Of a stretch of DNA of 64,000 nucleotides, positions 8,483 to 61,312 are shown piece by piece. The DNA is from Geodermatophilus obscurus. Its GTDB lineage: Bacteria > Actinomycetota > Actinomycetes > Mycobacteriales > Geodermatophilaceae. A program made the position numbers and the translations under genes. Location of the stretch: NCBI RefSeq assembly GCF_900143215.1, contig NZ_FRDM01000005.1, positions 186,001 to 250,000 of the forward strand. The letters are read 5' to 3'. Under the pieces are notes generated by a model. It was not told the origin of the DNA and made no database searches. It was given only the letters and a program-made list of their open reading frames with translations. Within the stretch, counting starts at the first letter, position 1. Each line of letters opens with the position of its first letter.

Positions 8483-9618
8483 CCGGCCATCGTCTCCCGC
8501 GCGACCGGGATGGCGCCGAGCGGGCGGCCGCGCCAGGACAGCGTGCCCCGCCGCCGCCCGGCGACCGACCCGGCCAGCAGGACGTCGAACAGCAGCATCG
8601 ACAGCGGGTGGGCCAGCGAGTCCGGCCAGATCCGGCTGCCGGTTGCCGCGGCCGACACCGCTCGCCCCGCCACGCCCGCCGCGTAGCCGACGAGCCCCGC
8701 CCGTGACCCGCGCAGCGCGGCGAGGGCGGGCAGCACCCAGACCGCCGTCAGCCCGGCCGCGACCGCCACGCTCGCTCCCGGCGACCCGCCGACCGACGCC
8801 CACAGCGACTTGGCGTAGCCCGCTCGCAGCGCCGGCCAGCCGTCGTACATCCGGCAGGCGGCCAGCCGCGATCCGTCGACCGGCACCGCCCGCCCCCCGG
8901 CCCGCTTCACCGCCCGCGCCAGCGCGACGTCCTCGATCACCTCGCCGCGCACCGCGCCGTGCCCGCCGGCCCGCGCGTACGCCGACCGCCGGACGACCAG
9001 GAACTGGCCGTTGGCCGCGGTCAGCGACGGCCGCCGGGACCGCTCGGCCAGCCGCACCGGCAGGGTGGTGATCCACAACCAGGGGCCGAGCGGCTGCACG
9101 AGGCGCTCGGCCGCCGTCGCGGTCACCGGCCGCGGCCAGGGGGAGACCAGGTCCAGGCCGTGCGCATCGAGGACGGCGACCGCGCCGGCCACCGCGTCGG
9201 GGAACAGCCGGACGTCGGCGTCGAGGAAGACCAGCACGCCGTCGTCCGTCTCCTCGCCGGTGGCCGCCCCGGTGGCGCAGGCGTGCGGCTTGCCCAGCCA
9301 GCCCCGCGGCGGGTCGGCGATGGCGACCAGGCACACCCGCGGATCGGCCACCGAGCGCACCACGTCGGCGGTGCCGTCGGTCGAGCCGTCGTCCACGACG
9401 ACCACGCGCAGGTCGGGCACCCCCTGCTGGGCCAGCACCGCGGTCAGGCAGCCGCCGATCTGCGCCTCCTCGTCGCGCACCGGGAGGACGACGGTGACCG
9501 GCCGGCGCACCGGCGGCGGCCCGGCCGGGGGACGGCGTACCAGCGCCACGTTGACCGCCGCGTGCAGCGCGCCGGCGACGGCCGCGCCAGAGAGGACCCA
9601 CAACGGCCGGCCGGTCAC
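8479..9618 (-). CDS. Family 2 glycosyltransferase, CruG-like
   Basis: A 379-residue GT2 enzyme: a short N-terminal membrane helix, then VTVVLPVRDEEAQIGGCLTA, VVDDGSTDGT, the metal-binding FLDADVRLFP, and GEVIEDVALARAVK as the acceptor/QxxRW-like region. C-terminal hydrophobic helices follow. Immediately upstream is a CruF-like carotenoid hydratase, and CruF-CruG pairs make glycosylated acyclic or monocyclic carotenoids, so a carotenoid 2'-glycosyltransferase is the best guess. The GTG start at 9618 receives its ribosome-binding site and stop/start coupling from a family B minicistron. Confidence 0.72.
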   Translation of the reverse strand: MTGRPLWVLSGAAVAGALHAAVNVALVRRPPAGPPPVRRPVTVVLPVRDEEAQIGGCLTAVLAQQGVPDLRVVVVDDGSTDGTADVVRSVADPRVCLVAIADPPRGWLGKPHACATGAATGEETDDGVLVFLDADVRLFPDAVAGAVAVLDAHGLDLVSPWPRPVTATAAERLVQPLGPWLWITTLPVRLAERSRRPSLTAANGQFLVVRRSAYARAGGHGAVRGEVIEDVALARAVKRAGGRAVPVDGSRLAACRMYDGWPALRAGYAKSLWASVGGSPGASVAVAAGLTAVWVLPALAALRGSRAGLVGYAAGVAGRAVSAAATGSRIWPDSLAHPLSMLLFDVLLAGSVAGRRRGTLSWRGRPLGAIPVARETMAG

Positions 9619-18076: not shown

Positions 18077-18081
18077 GAAAG

Positions 18082-18128
18082 GGCCCCGCTGCCCCCCCAC
18101 GCTCGGCGCGGGCCCCTGCAGCGGGGCC
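18082..18128 (+). terminator. Family A hairpin after dnaE2
   Basis: GGCCCCGCTGC (18082-18092) pairs perfectly with GCAGCGGGGCC (18118-18128). The loop is a shortened version of the family A core. It begins 5 nt after the dnaE2 stop, so it is the likely terminator of the SOS operon. Confidence 0.7.
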
Positions 18129-22180: not shown

Positions 22181-23122
22181 TCAGACGCCGGAGAGCAGCC
22201 GTACGTGCCAGGTGCGGCCGTGCGCGGGGTGCACCGCCCGGCAGGTCAGCGGCGCCGACTCCTGCGACGGGCGGCTCTCGACCTCGGTGACCACGTCACC
22301 GTCCGGCCCGGCCAGGGTGACCACCCACCGCTCGATCTCGGCTCCGGCCGGGGTCAGCCGGCGCACGTCGCGCGGCAGCAGGTCGTCGACACCGAGCAGC
22401 GAGAGCTCCGCGCGGGCGGTGTGCTGGGCCGCCTGCGCCGGCGCGGGCACCCCCGACCGGCCGCGCAGCCAGGGCAGCGCGACCCGGCCGGCGGCGTGCG
22501 CGGCGACCAGTTCGGCGCCGTCGTCGGGCACCTGCCCGTAGTAGAAGCCGTGCGGCAGCACGAGCACGTTGCTGGCGAACCGGCAGCCGCCCAGGTGGCT
22601 GCACTCCCAGGCGTCGTCGGTGGGCATCGTCCGGGCCAGCGGCCGGCCGCGCAGCGCGCAGCACGCGTCGTGCCCGCCGTGCGCGCACACCAGGTAGAGC
22701 GGGTCGTCGGTGCGCGTCCCCACCGACCCGTCCCACGGGACGTCGACCAGTTCGGCGTCGGTGTCGCGCACCGACCACCACACGCCCAGCGCGCCGGGCC
22801 GGCCGTCGACGTAGGCCCAGCGCCGCTGCGAGTCGGCCAGCCGGTCGCCGGGGCGGCGGACCAGCAGCACCCGCACGCCCTCGACCCGTGCCCGGTGGGT
22901 GAGTCGTGGTGCGACGGCCTGGTCGAAGCGGGACTGCGTCAGGGCGTCCTTGCCCCACGGACCGGGCTGCTCCACCAGCAGCCAGCGCTGCGCCGGCGAC
23001 GCGGTGGCCACGCAGGAGTCGCCACGGACCAGCGCCTGCACCGAGCAGCGGTCCGGATCGAGCCGTCCTGCAGGCAGTCCCGGCGCTGCCGCGACCTGGC
23101 AGAAGTCGGCCGGAGCGCTCAC
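22181..23122 (-). CDS. Sucrase/ferredoxin-like (thioredoxin-fold) protein
   Basis: A 313-residue sucrase/ferredoxin-like family protein. Its C-terminal thioredoxin-like ferredoxin part shows CAHGGHDACCALRGRPL and ECSHLGGCRFASNVLVLP, giving the cysteines for a [2Fe-2S] cluster. The biological role is unknown. The GTG start at 23122 overlaps the stop of the last of three tandem family B minicistrons, which also supply the GAGGAGG ribosome-binding site. The next gene upstream on this strand is the JmjC-cupin oxygenase, another iron protein. Confidence 0.78.
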   Translation of the reverse strand: MSAPADFCQVAAAPGLPAGRLDPDRCSVQALVRGDSCVATASPAQRWLLVEQPGPWGKDALTQSRFDQAVAPRLTHRARVEGVRVLLVRRPGDRLADSQRRWAYVDGRPGALGVWWSVRDTDAELVDVPWDGSVGTRTDDPLYLVCAHGGHDACCALRGRPLARTMPTDDAWECSHLGGCRFASNVLVLPHGFYYGQVPDDGAELVAAHAAGRVALPWLRGRSGVPAPAQAAQHTARAELSLLGVDDLLPRDVRRLTPAGAEIERWVVTLAGPDGDVVTEVESRPSQESAPLTCRAVHPAHGRTWHVRLLSGV

Positions 23123-23199
23123 GTCCCCTCCTCGCCGGCGCTCGGACGGCCCGGAACCGGCCGTGCTGTACCCACGGGTGACCTCGCGAGCTCGGTCAC
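23119..23199 (-). repeat. Family B minicistron, tandem copy 3 (nearest the gene)
   Basis: A 26-codon frame, GTG to TGA, starting VTELARSPVG and ending PSAGEEGT. The TGA overlaps the GTG of the sucrase/ferredoxin gene. The tandem period is 77 bp, which is exactly 27 codons minus the 4-nt overlap. Confidence 0.75.
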
Positions 23200-23276
23200 G
23201 TCCCCTCCTCGCCGGCGCTCGGACGGGCCGGAACCGGCCGTGCTGTGCCCATGGAGAACCTCGCGAGCGCGGTCAC
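23196..23276 (-). repeat. Family B minicistron, tandem copy 2
   Basis: A 26-codon frame starting VTALARFSMG and ending PSAGEEGT. It overlaps copies 1 and 3 by GTGA. Its palindromic 5' end has two substitutions relative to the other copies. Confidence 0.75.
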
Positions 23277-23353
23277 GTCCCCTCCTCGCTGGCGCTCGGA
23301 CGGGCCGTGACCGGCGGTGCTGTGCCCATGGGTGACCTCGCGAGCTCGGTCAC
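23273..23353 (-). repeat. Family B minicistron, tandem copy 1
   Basis: A 26-codon frame starting VTELARSPMG and ending PSASEEGT. The GTG lies 19 nt after the oxygenase stop. This copy is the closest of the three to the single unit at 9615-9695. Confidence 0.75.
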
Positions 23354-23372: not shown

Positions 23373-24683
23373 TCACGTTCCGTTCCCGGGCGCGCGCTCA
23401 CGCCCCCCATGGTCCTCCGCGGTCGCACCGGGCACGGTGGCGATCGACTCGGTCACCAGCCGCCGGGCCAGGGTGAGCTGGTCGGGGGCGTCGAGCCCGG
23501 GCAGGTCGGCGACCTTGAGCTCGCCGGCGGCCAGCAACCCGGCCACCGCCGGCCGGGTCTCCGCGGGCAGCTCCAGGGACCGCCGTCCCGCGACCAGGGT
23601 GACCCGCCCGTCGGCGGCCTCGCGCAGCCGGCAGCGCAGCCGGCGGCGCAACCGGAGCACGGTGTCGGGGGAGAGGGCGGCCGCCGCGGTCGCCTGGGCC
23701 AGCGGGGCCACCGGTTCCGGGCGGACCTGCGACCAGGTGCGGGCTCGCAGCCGGTCGGCGACCTCGGCGGGGTCGACGCGGTCCAGCCAGCCCTTGAGCG
23801 CGGTCACGACCGTCGCGACGTCGTCGGCGACCGCGGCCGGGTCGGCGAGGTCGACGCCCAGCGGCAGCGAGCGGCGCAGCTCCGGGTCCTCGGTGGCGAG
23901 CACGCGGACCAGGTCCAGGGCGGACTCCGCGGCCGCCCACCGGGTGACCGGGTGGATGCCGACGGTCAGGTGTGCGCTGATCGCGCCGAGCGCGGTCGCC
24001 GAGTGCAGGTAGCCGCGTGGCAGGTAGAGAGCGTCGCCGGGGCGCAGCACCGCGTCGATCACCGGCTCGCGCTCGGCGGCGGCGGCCACCGCGGCGGCCC
24101 GGTCGTTCCACGGCTGGGTGCGCAGCGGGTCGGTCAGCACCGGCTCGTGGATGCGCCAGTGCTTCTCGCCGGCCACCTGCAGGACGAAGACGTCGTGGAC
24201 GTCGTAGTGCGGGGAGAAGCCGCGCGAGGACGGCGGGGTGATGTAGGCGTTGACCTGCGTCGGGTGGCCGAGGTCGGCGGCCAGCTGGTCGGCGAACTCG
24301 ATCAGCGGCGGCCACAGCCGGTGCAGCCCCTGCAGGACGACGGTGCTGCCGTCGGCGAACAGCCGCAGCACCGCGTCGGAGGAGACCTGGTCGGCGACCT
24401 CCGCGCCGGCGCCGCCGGACGTGGTGAAGCGCTTGGGGTCGACGACCGCGCCGTCCTTGGCGATCCGCAGGAACGGGGTGCGCAGTCCGCGGCGGGACAG
24501 CAGTTCGTCGACCGCGGCGAGGTCGAGCAGGTCGGCGAAGGAGCTGCCCGTCTCCTCGGCGCGCGTCAGCAGCGGCCGGCGGGCCCAGTACTCCTCGGCG
24601 AAGACCCGCGGGTCCAGAGCGGTGCACCGACCCAGGGCCGGCCGGGGATCCGGCCGGCCCTGGGCGGCGTGGTCCTCGGTCAG
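23373..24683 (-). CDS. JmjC-type cupin oxygenase (RoxA/NO66-like, cupin_4)
   Basis: A 436-residue Fe(II)/2-oxoglutarate oxygenase of the cupin_4/JmjC class; relatives hydroxylate ribosomal proteins. With the start used here the iron triad is H159-x-D161 (FSPHYDVHD) and H227 (LPRGYLHSATAL); EEYWARRPLL and VNAYITPPSSRGF are family marks. No ATG or GTG is found near the N-terminus. The frame begins best at CTG 24683, which overlaps the TGA of the (DGGA)n peptide gene in the same xTGA arrangement used across the window. A frameshifted fusion to the peptide is possible but less likely. The neighbouring peptide is a candidate substrate. Confidence 0.78.
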   Translation of the reverse strand: MTEDHAAQGRPDPRPALGRCTALDPRVFAEEYWARRPLLTRAEETGSSFADLLDLAAVDELLSRRGLRTPFLRIAKDGAVVDPKRFTTSGGAGAEVADQVSSDAVLRLFADGSTVVLQGLHRLWPPLIEFADQLAADLGHPTQVNAYITPPSSRGFSPHYDVHDVFVLQVAGEKHWRIHEPVLTDPLRTQPWNDRAAAVAAAAEREPVIDAVLRPGDALYLPRGYLHSATALGAISAHLTVGIHPVTRWAAAESALDLVRVLATEDPELRRSLPLGVDLADPAAVADDVATVVTALKGWLDRVDPAEVADRLRARTWSQVRPEPVAPLAQATAAAALSPDTVLRLRRRLRCRLREAADGRVTLVAGRRSLELPAETRPAVAGLLAAGELKVADLPGLDAPDQLTLARRLVTESIATVPGATAEDHGGRERAPGNGT

Positions 24684-24943
24684 GCGGAACCGTCCGCGCC
24701 ACCGTCGGCACCGCCGTCCGCGCCACCATCGGCACCGCCGTCCGCGCCGCCGTCCGCGCCGCCGTCGGCACCGCCGTCGGCACCGCCGTCCGCGCCGCCG
24801 TCGGCACCACCATCGGCCGAGCCGTGGCCGGCGCCGCTGTCGGCGCCGCCGTCGGCGCCGCCGTCCGAACCGCCGCCCGCCGCGCCGCCGTCGGCCGGGC
24901 CGTGGCCTTCGGTGCTGGTCATGTCGTCGTCGTCGAGAGCCAT
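24680..24943 (-). CDS. Small (DGGA)n tandem-repeat peptide
   Basis: An 87-residue peptide. Residues 1-43 begin MALDDDDMTSTEG and are Gly/Asp/Ala rich. Residues 44-87 are ten DGGA units plus a final DGSA. Codons vary synonymously between units (GAC/GAT, GGC/GGT, GCC/GCG) while the amino acids do not change, so the protein sequence appears selected. The ATG at 24943 has a GGGGAGA upstream. The stop overlaps the oxygenase start. No family is recognised: it could be a modified peptide precursor, a calcium-binding acidic peptide or a structural tail. No signal peptide or cysteine is seen. Confidence 0.68.
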   Translation of the reverse strand: MALDDDDMTSTEGHGPADGGAAGGGSDGGADGGADSGAGHGSADGGADGGADGGADGGADGGADGGADGGADGGADGGADGGADGSA

Positions 24944-27500: not shown

Positions 27501-27627
27501 AGAAGGACCCCGTCCTCCTCGTGGAGGACCCCTTGCCCCGCCACTCGCAGGCTCGCGGCGCGGGACCCTGCACAGGGGCCGTCAGAGCTCGCGGCGAGCC
27601 TCTGGACGGGGCCAGGACGGGGTCCTC
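27501..27627. terminator. Family A element between convergent genes
   Basis: CCCCGTCC at 27508-27515 can pair with GGACGGGG at 27604-27611 or 27615-27622. An inner copy has the arm CCCCTTGC and a matching CAGGGG, and the core GCTCGCGGCG loop appears twice. It starts one base after one stop (AGAAGGACCCC) and reaches the other gene's stop, so it probably terminates both strands. Confidence 0.62.
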
Positions 27628-33242: not shown

Positions 33243-33762
33243 TCCCGACGTCCCGTTCCCCCGACCCCTCCAGGCCCTCCCCGCCGACCGAGCCGACTTC
33301 CCCGCGGCTCGACCGGACCGGACCGAGCCACCTTCCCCGTGGCTCGGTCCCCAGCGGCACCGGAGGAGACGCACCGCCCACCGGGCGCGCCGCCGGCCCC
33401 CACCGGCTGCCGCGCCCGCCCGTCCCCGCGGGGCTCCACCTGACGTACTTCCCCGACGCCAGGCGGGCCCCGCGGGGGGCGGCCGGGCGTCTGTCGTGGG
33501 TCGGGACCCCACCTCGCCCCACGTCCCCCACCCCGCCCCACCCACCCCGTCCCACCGACCACCCCGTCCCACCGACCACCCCGTCCCACCGACCACCCCG
33601 CCACACCCACCCCGTCCCGCCCTCCCACCCCGGGCGCCCCAGCAGCGTCCCCGAGGACCGGCGAAACGCCGCTGCGCTCCGCTCCCCGACCGCCGTCCAG
33701 CCCCACCATGGACGGGCCTCCGCGCCCCGAGGGCGCCCCGACCCGTTCAGGAGCCGCCGACG
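33243..33762. other. Long C-rich spacer between mraZ and rsmH
   Basis: No supported gene is present. At 33507-33554 there are several CCCCA/TCCCA motifs mostly 10 bp apart, which read on the minus strand as TGGGN, like MraZ boxes. At 33549-33599 a 17-bp unit (GTCCCACCGACCACCCC) is repeated three times. A reading frame upstream of rsmH is proline-rich noise. The last 100 bp hold the rsmH start with AGGAG at 33749-33753. Confidence 0.6.
33549..33599. repeat. 17-bp tandem repeat, three copies
   Basis: GTCCCACCGACCACCCC occurs at 33549, 33566 and 33583 without change. It lies in the mraZ-rsmH spacer. Confidence 0.85.
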
Positions 33763-34847: not shown

Positions 34848-35575
34848 GTGCCACCGCACGCGCGGCGGGGAGCCCGGCCGAGGGCCCGCCCGGCCGCCGG
34901 ACCCTGCCTCCGCTGGAGAACGACCCCGTTCCCCTTCCGGGAACTCGTCGCGGCTCCGTCCCGGGTCCCACCCCGAGCTCGAGGAGGGTGGGCAGGACGG
35001 GGTCCACGCCGGGGGCGCCGGCGCACGCTCCGAGCAGCACCGCGCGGGCCGCCGGCCCGGCTCCGGCGCGGTCGGGCCGCGCGCACACCGCGCCGGTGCG
35101 CGTGGGCACGCCGCGGACCCGCCCGGCGGCCCGGCCGGCGGCGTCGACCGGCCCGGTGCCCCGCACGGCGGCCGGCTCGCCGGCGTCCCGCCTGCGCGCC
35201 ACCGTCGGCGCCCACCGCGCGCCCGTCGTGCTGCTCGTCGTGACCCTGCTGGTGGCCACCGCGCTGGGGCTGCTGTTCCTCAACACCGCCATCGCGGTCA
35301 ACTCGCTCAAGGCGACGCAGCTGAGGGCCGCGAACGAGGACCGCGCCCAGGAGGTGCAGCGCCTGGAGCAGCAGGTCGTGTCCGGCGGCACGCCCGCCGA
35401 GCTCGCACGCGAGGCGCGCGCCGCCGGCATGGTCCCCGCGGGTGCGGCCGCCTACCTGGTCGTCGGGGAGGACGGCACCGTCACCCTGCGCGGCGAGCCC
35501 GTCCCGGCCGAGGAGCCGGAGCCGGCCGAGCTCCCGGCGATCCCGCCGCCGCCCGTGGCCGGGGGTGGGGACTGA
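34844..35575 (+). CDS. ftsL: Cell division protein FtsL
   Basis: A 243-residue bitopic protein with one transmembrane helix (about residues 125-147, PVVLLVVTLLVATALGLLFL) and a following leucine-zipper-like coiled coil (LKATQLRAANEDRAQEVQRLEQQV). FtsL forms the FtsQLB complex that activates FtsWI. It is longer than typical because of an Arg/Pro-rich cytoplasmic tail; residues about 24-56 are encoded by a family A hairpin element. ATG 34844 has a strong GAGGAGG 5 nt upstream, so the element is inside the reading frame. Confidence 0.85.
   Translation: MSATARAAGSPAEGPPGRRTLPPLENDPVPLPGTRRGSVPGPTPSSRRVGRTGSTPGAPAHAPSSTARAAGPAPARSGRAHTAPVRVGTPRTRPAARPAASTGPVPRTAAGSPASRLRATVGAHRAPVVLLVVTLLVATALGLLFLNTAIAVNSLKATQLRAANEDRAQEVQRLEQQVVSGGTPAELAREARAAGMVPAGAAAYLVVGEDGTVTLRGEPVPAEEPEPAELPAIPPPPVAGGGD
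34910..35012 (+). repeat. Family A element inside ftsL
   Basis: GACCCCGT (34922-34929) and ACGGGGTC (34997-35004) form a perfect 8-bp stem. The preceding GGAGAACGACCCC mirrors the GAAGAACGACC seen after mraY. It is in frame and free of stop codons in the ftsL frame. Confidence 0.65.
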
Positions 35576-41720: not shown

Positions 41721-41911
41721 AGAACGACCACCCTTCCCCCCGTGAAGCACCCCCCTGCCCCCCACCGCTCGCAGGCTCGCGGCGGGCCCCTGCAGGGCGG
41801 CCGACCCAGGCTCGACGCGGACCCCTGAAGGGTGGCCGTTCCAGCACCTCACCACCGCGACACGCCCCAGCGGTGCGCCGGGAGACCCGCACCACCGGCC
41901 ACGATGGCCGG
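41721..41911 (+). terminator. Double family A element at the position of murD
   Basis: An outer stem pairs CCACCCTTC (41728-41736) with GAAGGGTGG (41827-41835); a nested stem pairs CCCTGC (41753-41758) with GCAGGG (41792-41797). The conserved core GCTCGCAGGCTCGCGGCG lies between. The remaining 75 bp lead into ftsW. No remnant of murD is visible. Confidence 0.65.
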
Positions 41912-46863: not shown

Positions 46864-47096
46864 CAGGAGGACCCCGTCCTCTCCACTCCTCGTAGCAGGA
46901 CCCGCCCTCCTCACCGCGAAGGACCCCGCCCTCCCCGCCCTGCGTCGAAGGACCCCGTCCTCCTCACCGCTCGCAGGCTCGCGGCGAGCCCCTGGACGGG
47001 GCCGACCCGGGACGGGGCCGCGGCGAGCCTCTGGACGGGGCCGGCGGACCCGCCGTGGGGGTGGCCGGGCCAGGTCCGGTGGGAGAGGGTGGCCCG
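46864..47096 (+). terminator. Family A element cluster after ftsQ
   Basis: At least three left arms (GGACCCCGTCC or GGACCCCGCCC) and three right arms (GGACGGGGCC) lie in 233 bp. The best stem pairs CCCCGTCC (46953-46960) with GGACGGGG (46994-47001) around the conserved core. This is the densest accumulation in the window and separates ftsQ from the CMD gene. Confidence 0.65.
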
Positions 47097-48040: not shown

Positions 48041-49318
48041 ATGACACCTCCGCACAACTACCTCGCGGTCATCAAGGTCGTCGGCATCGGCGGCGGCGGG
48101 GTGAACGCGGTCAACCGCATGATCGAGGTCGGCCTCAAGGGGGTCGAGTTCATCGCCATCAACACCGACGCGCAGGCGCTGTTGATGAGCGATGCGGACG
48201 TCAAGCTCGACGTCGGCCGTGAGCTCACCCGCGGGCTCGGCGCAGGCGCGCAGCCCGACGTCGGCCGGCAGGCCGCCGAGGACCACCGCGAGGAGATCGA
48301 AGAGGTGCTCAAGGGCGCCGACATGGTCTTCGTGACCGCCGGCGAGGGCGGTGGCACCGGCACCGGCGGCGCGCCGGTCGTCGCCTCGATCGCCCGCAAG
48401 CTCGGTGCGCTGACCATCGGCGTGGTCACCCGCCCGTTCTCCTTCGAGGGCAAGCGGCGGGCCGTGCAGGCCGAGTCGGGCATCGAGGAACTGCGCAACG
48501 AGTGCGACACGCTCATCGTCATCCCCAACGACCGGCTGCTGCAGCTGGGTGACCGGAACGTCAGCGTCATGGACGCCTTCCGGACCGCCGACCAGGTGCT
48601 GCTGTCCGGTGTCCAGGGCATCACCGACCTGATCACCACGCCGGGTCTGATCAACCTGGACTTCGCCGACGTCAAGTCGGTCATGTCCGGCGCCGGGTCG
48701 GCCCTCATGGGCATCGGCAGCGCGCGCGGGGACAATCGGGCGCTGCTGGCCGCCGAGCAGGCGATCGCCAGCCCGCTGCTGGAGGCCTCGATGGAGGGTG
48801 CCCACGGCGTGCTGCTGTCGATCTCCGGTGGTTCGGACCTGGGCCTGTTCGAGATCAACGAGGCCGCTTCGCTGGTCTCCGACGCCGCACACGCCGACGC
48901 CAACATCATCTTCGGTGCGGTCATCGACGACGCCCTCGGCGACGAGGTGCGGGTCACCGTCATCGCCGCCGGCTTCGACGGTGGCAAGCCGGCGGGTCGC
49001 AAGGACACCGGCATCGCCTCGGTCCCGGCCGCCGCCCCGGTGGCCCCGCCGACCGCCCCGCGGATGCCGGTGCACCCGCAGCCGGTGGGCGGCGTCCCGA
49101 CGGGGGAGCGGCTGGTCCCCCAGGCGCCGCAGGCGCAGCCGAACCCGCCGTCGACCTCGCAGCTGCCGGGCCGCGCGGCCGCCGGTGGCGGGATCACCGT
49201 GCCGCCGCTGCCGCCGGTCCCCGGCAACAACGCGAACACCGCCGCCGCGGGCCGGCGTCCGCTGTCCAACGAGGACTTCGAGGAGGAGCTCGACATCCCG
49301 GAGTTCCTGCGTCAGTAG
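48041..49318 (+). CDS. ftsZ: Cell division protein FtsZ
   Basis: A 425-residue tubulin homologue that forms the Z-ring. The GTP signature GEGGGTGTG is at residues 101-109, with [15 protein letters not shown] at the N-terminus and the T7 loop [13 protein letters not shown] Pro/Ala-rich linker leads to the conserved C-terminal tail LDIPEFLR, which binds SepF and other partners. The ATG has GGGAG upstream. A double family A element follows. Confidence 0.97.
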
Positions 49319-49480
49319 AAGGACCCCCGTGCCCCCCACCACTCGCGAGCTCGTGGCGGGCCCCTGCACGGGGGCCGCACCCTTCCCCCCACGCCTCGCA
49401 TGCTCGTCGCGGGCCCCGGGAGGGTGGCCGTTCCAGCACGGCACCTGGCTCGCGACGGGCCCCTGCACGGGGGCCGCACC
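49319..49480 (+). terminator. Double family A element after ftsZ
   Basis: CCCCCGTGC (49324-49332) pairs perfectly with GCACGGGGG (49366-49374). A second hairpin has ACCCT/AGGGT arms (left about 49379-49383, right 49421-49425). The stem sequences differ from other family A copies but remain complementary. It reaches the start of pgeF. Confidence 0.68.
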
Positions 49481-53933: not shown

Positions 53934-54062
53934 AGAAGGACCCCCTGCCCCCACCGGACAAGGACCCCGTCCTCCTCTCCCCTCGCAGGCTCGAGGCGAG
54001 CCTCGGGACGGGGCCGGCGGCGAGCCTCCGGACGAGGCCGATCCGGAGGCTCGCCACTCCGC
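53934..54062. terminator. Family A elements between convergent genes
   Basis: CCCCGTCC (53965-53972) pairs with GGACGGGG (54006-54013) around a CTCGCAGGCTCGAGGCGAGC core. A partial copy precedes it and another right-arm-like segment follows. Both neighbouring genes end here, so it should stop transcription on both strands. Confidence 0.62.
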
Positions 54063-61246: not shown

Positions 61247-61312
61247 AGAAGGACCCCCCTCCCACGCCTCGCGAGCTCGGCGCGGGCCCTGAGGGTGGCC
61301 GCTCCAGCACGT
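61247..61312 (+). terminator. Family A element after lspA
   Basis: CCCCCCTC (61254-61261) and GAGGGTGG (61291-61298) pair with one mismatch around a CTCGCGAGCTCGGCGCGGGCC core. It begins directly after the stop with the characteristic AGAAGGACCCC. Confidence 0.62.

Follow-up and report, generated by a model that had tools for sequence, protein, structure and literature searches.

The hairpins that follow ftsZ in Geodermatophilus obscurus probably belong to a family of dispersed, REP-like hairpins, rather than being independent terminators. We base this reading on the dispersal of the unit, the covariation of its stems, the nesting of copies, the occurrence of empty and occupied sites, the replacement of stems and an exact register with stop codons.

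Hairpins behind ftsZ and elsewhere in the window

Read directly from the letters, the spacer between ftsZ and a laccase-domain gene (positions 49319-49480 of the window, by which we mean the whole 64,000-nucleotide stretch analyzed) contains two full hairpins and then an orphan 3' arm:

48041-49318, + strand: ftsZ
49316-49318, + strand: TAG stop codon of ftsZ, which together with G49315 is the GTAG tag of the element
49319-49376, + strand: Element A, with an AA-GGA foot (covariance-model hit 49320-49376, 79.8 bits, E 1e-15)
49324-49332/49366-49374, + strand: Element A, outer stem CCCCCGTGC/GCACGGGGG
49333-49334 x 49361-49365, + strand: Element A, internal loop (CCCCT on the 3' side)
49335-49337/49358-49360, + strand: Element A, stem CCC/GGG
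49338/49357, + strand: Element A, A.C mismatch
49339-49342/49353-49356, + strand: Element A, inner stem CCAC/GTGG
49343-49352, + strand: Element A, apical loop TCGCGAGCTC; the 3' end of the element is GGCC
49378-49426, + strand: Element B, the second hairpin, outer stem CACCCT/AGGGTG (48.9 bits)
49396-49405, + strand: Element B, loop TCGCATGCTC
49430-49439, + strand: recurrent tail motif GTTCCAGCAC, after GGCC
49446-49475, + strand: orphan 3' arm (again GCACGGGGG), duplicating the 3' half of Element A

The FtsZ encoded at 48041-49318 finds its best matches in Blastococcus and Geodermatophilus, consistent with a member of Geodermatophilaceae. The foot of Element A lies 2 nt after the TAG of ftsZ, and the orphan arm (49446-49475) could pair alternatively with 49324-49332. 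The tail GTTCCAGCACSTCACC (49430-49439; many copies) recurs 3' of GGCC in a subset of elements, and tail plus 3' arm form a tandem duplication (L132, C44:73900). One contig labeled Candidatus Melainabacteria (L058) encodes an FtsZ 74% identical to the ftsZ product here, and is possibly mis-binned. The window holds the following further copies:

1-73, + strand: a pair of partial copies at the edge of the window; with upstream sequence added (C21:185980), the first of them is complete
18080-18128, + strand: shortened-loop copy CCCCGCTGC/GCAGCGGGG, 39.7 bits
18725-18778, + strand: degenerate copy behind a stop codon, 30.7 bits
27525-27580, + strand: inner copy in a convergent spacer, within an outer element CCCCGTCC/GGACGGGG (about 27504-27614)
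34951-35007, - strand: reverse-strand copy found with the covariance model
41746-41802, + strand: inner copy in the mraY-ftsW spacer, within an outer element CCACCCTTC/GAAGGGTGG (about 41724-41840)
46948-47004, + strand: copy after ftsQ, stem CCCCGTCC, 81.7 bits; it is the inner part of a composite of nested copies spanning about 46918-47043
53960-54016, + strand: copy in a convergent spacer, stem CCCCGTCC, preceded by the 5' arm of another copy
61249-61301, + strand: copy immediately 3' of the signal peptidase II gene stop

The first-pass annotation described stems that differ between copies and stay complementary, and the stems it quoted are present at 18, 27.5, 41.7, 46.9 and 54.0 kb. The copies at 27.5, 41.7, 46.9 and 54.0 kb are nested or composite, and the stems quoted for 27.5 and 41.7 kb are outer stems around a second full element.

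Covariation and genomic distribution

The unit spans about 60 bp and consists, in order, of GNNG-AA-GGA, an outer stem of 8-9 bp, a 2x5 internal loop (NCCYT on its 3' side), a 3-bp stem CYC/GRG, an A.C mismatch, a 4-bp inner stem, the 10-nt loop TCGCNNGCTC and the return to GGCC. The apical loop TCGCNNGCTC, the A.C mismatch, the asymmetric internal loop and the 5' tag are fixed, and the outer and inner stems covary freely. Of the conserved, foldable loop described earlier, only the 10-nt apical portion is invariant: the flanking CCGC/GCGG and the like are the covarying inner stem, and the loop as quoted, GCTCGCAGGCTCGCGGCG, is one variant. The pattern is more than chance, in that an 18-mer allowing at most two mismatches gave 149 matches genome-wide versus 2 for the reversed control, and the loop with 3 or more closing bp occurred 59 times in 943 kb of the genome versus 0 for the reversed pattern; loop centers of other lengths occurred in the genome at control level. 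A GNA-triloop interpretation of the 3-nt variants (TCC/TAC) was dropped, the loops being few and partly orthologous.

In an alignment of 34 seed copies, 93.0% of the cells were paired (compared with 74.2% after shuffling and 41-48% for slid controls), and changes on both sides were seen in 11 of 16 pairs. Because the seeds had been chosen as good hairpins, covariation was redone on the model's own matches. The 87 hits from the source genome were 90.1% paired, with a covariation score of 0.362 (control, 0.127), and 13 hits from two other genera were 93.8% paired, with a score of 0.501 (control, 0.141); both of these alignments are structure-fitted, so that pairing is favored in them, but the slid controls nonetheless collapse. 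The number of pairs with two-sided changes in the 87-hit alignment was matched or exceeded by 33 of 500 shuffles. On covariation score, all three alignments (two of them collected with the covariance model) exceeded their shuffled and slid controls, supporting the proposal that covariation reflects a selected structure.

The 87 matches come from 943 kb of the 5.24-Mb genome, corresponding to about 480 copies per genome. Model R1 found copies in 48 of 57 genomes of the soil actinobacterial family Geodermatophilaceae, with counts per genome that are lower bounds (most at or near the 98 candidates scored); three genera (g95, g98 and g100) yielded none. Across the class sample outside the family, R1 matched in one genome only; within that genome's own family a related core was present in 10 of 40 genomes, with up to 17 copies. 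This second family is probably Micrococcaceae, judging from sequence next to its copies, whose best matches among plasmids are Arthrobacter replicons. A plasmid search with one of its copies matched one Arthrobacter replicon. Those second-family copies that were read keep the mismatch, the CCC/GGG stem, the NCCCT internal loop and the apical loop, but their foot is another one, such as TAGCGCC...GGCGNTA. Several of them are found immediately 5' of an ATG, so that the core is not bound to gene ends. At loci L231-L253 of this family, units with the feet TAGCGCC...GGCGNTA are repeated in tandem, and a TANNNT-like box closes several of them just 5' of the ATG, possibly an overlap with a promoter.

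Other searches were negative within their scope. A plasmid search with a copy from the window gave no match, the loop closed by 4 bp was found in none of about 75 named FtsZ loci outside Geodermatophilaceae, counts outside the family were at background when the class was scanned with a 20-mer pattern, and the curated Rfam models did not match the hairpin. The papers searched for repeats in Geodermatophilaceae, REPs in actinobacteria, the loop itself and Arthrobacter palindromes contained nothing matching. None of about 12 tRNAs compared by coordinates had an element near its 3' end, a sample too small to judge.

Stop-codon register and turnover of sites

Positions were evaluated against our own uncurated gene calls, made from codon usage. 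By these calls, 78 of 83 elements are intergenic (35 in tandem spacers in the same sense as the genes, 24 convergent, 10 tandem in the opposite sense and 9 divergent). Convergent spacers are enriched (24/78, odds ratio 2.2, p=0.005), divergent spacers are depleted (odds ratio 0.34, p=0.0014), and orientation in tandem spacers is biased 35:10 toward sense (p=0.00025). The first-pass statement that elements often sit between convergent genes thus stands as an enrichment, although tandem spacers remain commoner (45/78).

Elements had also been placed within a few bases of stop codons, and they do lie there; the actual register is sharper. The foot GGACC starts exactly at TGA+4 in 25 of 28 cases in the source genome, in 21 of 27 in two relatives (G258 and G259) and in 8 of 9 in two other genera. 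The register for TAG rests on few cases, with TAG+2 in two of three copies here and both G258/G259 cases at +5 (0/2 at +2). A scan of all 876 gene ends for AGGRCC found 41 at TGA+4 and 6 at TAG+2, and no other offset had more than 5. Both registers put a G at -6, which places the stop codon within the GNNG tag: the tag occupies -6 to -3, two A's precede the stem, and the stop-derived forms are GAGG and GAAG. Copies with no preceding stop carry GTGG, GCAG, GTAG or GGAG at this position, with G at -6 in 73% and at -3 in 76%. A C precedes the TGA in 56 of 64 cases, compared with 63% of genes (p=1e-5, a value that is optimistic because some copies are orthologous), hinting at a target preference. 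At site 7 the TAA stop apparently arrives with the element.

Eighteen clusters were compared with genomes G258 and G259, which share about 94% identity with the source genome over the compared region. Both relatives lack an element at sites 7, 9 and 13, and most of the other clusters have a hairpin at the same place with a different stem; at site 3 the stems at orthologous positions are CCCCGTCC, CCCCGCCC and CCCCTTGC. Where the flanks of a site are 94-96% identical, the stem is usually replaced. Site 13 (mraY-ftsW) is occupied in approximately half of the readable members of the genus and is a short empty spacer in several others. The ftsZ site holds an element in nearly all members, its stems turning over; in G259 the 5' arm and the start of the loop are kept there and are followed by a second element. 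Gene conversion, slippage and deletion could be alternative sources of the empty sites and of stem replacement. Nested copies sit within the loop of another copy; nesting reaches three levels (C48:28345), with the inner copy sometimes reversed (C48:191773; L184, L189). Target-site duplications could not be demonstrated at the elements.

Candidate explanations and related repeat systems

If the hairpin were a sense-strand intrinsic terminator that lacks a U-tract and ends the transcript of the upstream gene, this would fit the strong hairpin found 0-6 nt after the stop in more than half of the sense copies, the spacer and orientation biases (convergent enriched, divergent depleted, 35:10 sense in tandem spacers) and the maintenance of the ftsZ-site copy in nearly all members of the genus despite stem turnover; terminators without a U-tract have been reported in actinobacteria (PMC8355165). 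The sense hairpin is indeed stable (mean -32.1 kcal/mol), but the 10 nt after the stem have a T fraction of 0.110, below the 0.127 of the genome, and contain four or more T in 0 of 105 copies. The dcw cluster would, moreover, need to accommodate such terminators at mraY-ftsW, after ftsQ and after ftsZ (FtsW, MraY and FtsQ identified by Pfam), and several sister species lack a copy at the first of these sites. Terminators of this kind also leave the fixed loop, the mismatch, the tag register and the nesting unexplained. The absent U-tract, the dcw copies with empty sister sites and the over-exact register speak against the lineage-specific terminator of the first-pass annotation on the sense strand, and we regard the U-tract-free version as unlikely. 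Transcripts might instead be halted from the other side, with the hairpin of the reverse RNA and its UCCUUCYUCA tail acting as a terminator or roadblock that stops convergent or antisense transcripts before the upstream gene. The reverse-strand fold is the more stable in 96 of 105 copies (mean -36.5 versus -32.1 kcal/mol), both conserved A.C mismatches become G.U in it (the inner mismatch column is AC in 68 copies, GC in 16 and AT in 11), tandem G.A pairs might arise within its loop GAGCNNGCGA, its tail has a T fraction of 0.369 with at least four T in 10 nt in 61 of 105 copies, and convergent spacers are the enriched ones. We nevertheless consider this quite improbable: the T-rich tail mostly reproduces, in complement, the GNNGAA tag and the stop codon, with TTT in only 6 of 105 copies, and the reverse strand of tandem spacers is mostly antisense, so that copies there would act on antisense RNA alone.

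An element acting at the level of mRNA, a hairpin that from its place at the stop codon would delay the termination of translation or shield the 3' end, is very improbable. It would account for a stem foot mostly at exactly TGA+4, and REPs of E. coli are reported to reduce translation when they lie within 15 nt of a stop (PMC12306157); however, 19 of the 78 intergenic copies have no sense gene upstream of them, and second-family copies often lie directly 5' of an ATG. A hairpin behind a stop codon in a GC-rich genome is, as a caution, not automatically a terminator.

Under the REP-like reading that we favor, the units would propagate at the DNA level and turn over there, through a trans-acting enzyme other than the Y1/RAYT transposase that would recognize the tag and the folded reverse strand. 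The stems would drift with compensation because the fold alone matters, and the loop, mismatch and tag would be kept because these are read; a copy settled behind a stop codon might then have an incidental effect on transcript ends. From sequence, we infer that the units may be mobile, may bind a factor and may function as RNA. The earlier suggestion that the conserved loop is recognized by something agrees, as an inference, with the constancy of the loop, of the A.C mismatch and of the internal loop on its 3' side while the stems change, a constancy that extends to the second actinobacterial family.

The closest known systems are the GTAG-REPs (PMC3733652, PMC2817692), hairpins that likewise number in the hundreds, occupy mostly tandem and convergent spacers behind ORFs and vary in their stems with compensation, some families having GC-flanked loops. 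The GNNG tag of the present elements resembles the 4-nt unpaired GTAG tag at the foot of these REPs. In anatomy and behavior the elements match REPs as reviewed in PMC3733652, whose tag often supplies the stop codon and degenerates to GTRG/GTGG, and which lie behind ORFs. The family described here differs in having only GNNG as its tag, AA between tag and stem, and a conserved 10-nt loop with A.C mismatches; among the arrays read, nested and direct-tandem arrangements prevail, where REPs are predominantly head-to-head. A search for PF01797 (the REP transposase, Y1/RAYT; IS200), the one type of mobilizing enzyme covered, found it in 0 of 57 family genomes and, as a control, in 5 of 14 known genomes, E. 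coli included. Because Y1/RAYT is absent from these 57 genomes, we do not file the elements as GTAG-REPs, although they work like them. CGTC-REPs (PMC3733652) are also dispersed hairpins with no dedicated transposase, but neither their CGTC tag nor their loops of 4-5 nt nor stems that start with AT were seen here, where the loop has 10 nt and the tag is GNNG. Intrinsic terminators and the U-less 'cluster of hairpins' terminators (PMC8355165) share a GC-rich hairpin right behind the stop; unlike them, the present elements have a conserved loop, mismatch and tag, have no sense U-tract, and lie inside the dcw cluster at sites whose orthologs are empty.

The elements look like mobile repeats whose known partner enzyme was lost or was never present. 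An exact register and a conserved loop in the absence of RAYT would imply either a new mobilizing enzyme or enzyme-free spread. We suggest, tentatively and as a possibility somewhat on the doubtful side, that they represent a distinct, RAYT-independent class of mobile hairpins in Actinobacteria that are read on one folded strand through their loop and mismatch, dock at stop codons in a fixed register and insert repeatedly into their own loops, by means of an enzyme new to hairpin repeats. Turnover is visible between species that are 94% identical regionally, making insertion, nesting and replacement directly studiable.

MITEs and nested miniature elements are short, non-coding, dispersed, mutually nesting and polymorphic for presence or absence. 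The hairpins share all of these properties, and differ in that no terminal repeats beyond the hairpin, target duplication or parent element was found. An integron attC site requires conserved core boxes in its stem and an integrase, and attC was set aside on these grounds. Repeats of other kinds also occur in the window, namely a 12-bp tandem array (CGCCGTCSGCRC-like) within a coding region at 24661-24918, three tandem 77-bp direct repeats at 23080-23353 with a more distant copy at 9576, and intergenic 17-bp tandem repeats (CCCCGTCCCACCGACCA) at 33528-33640.
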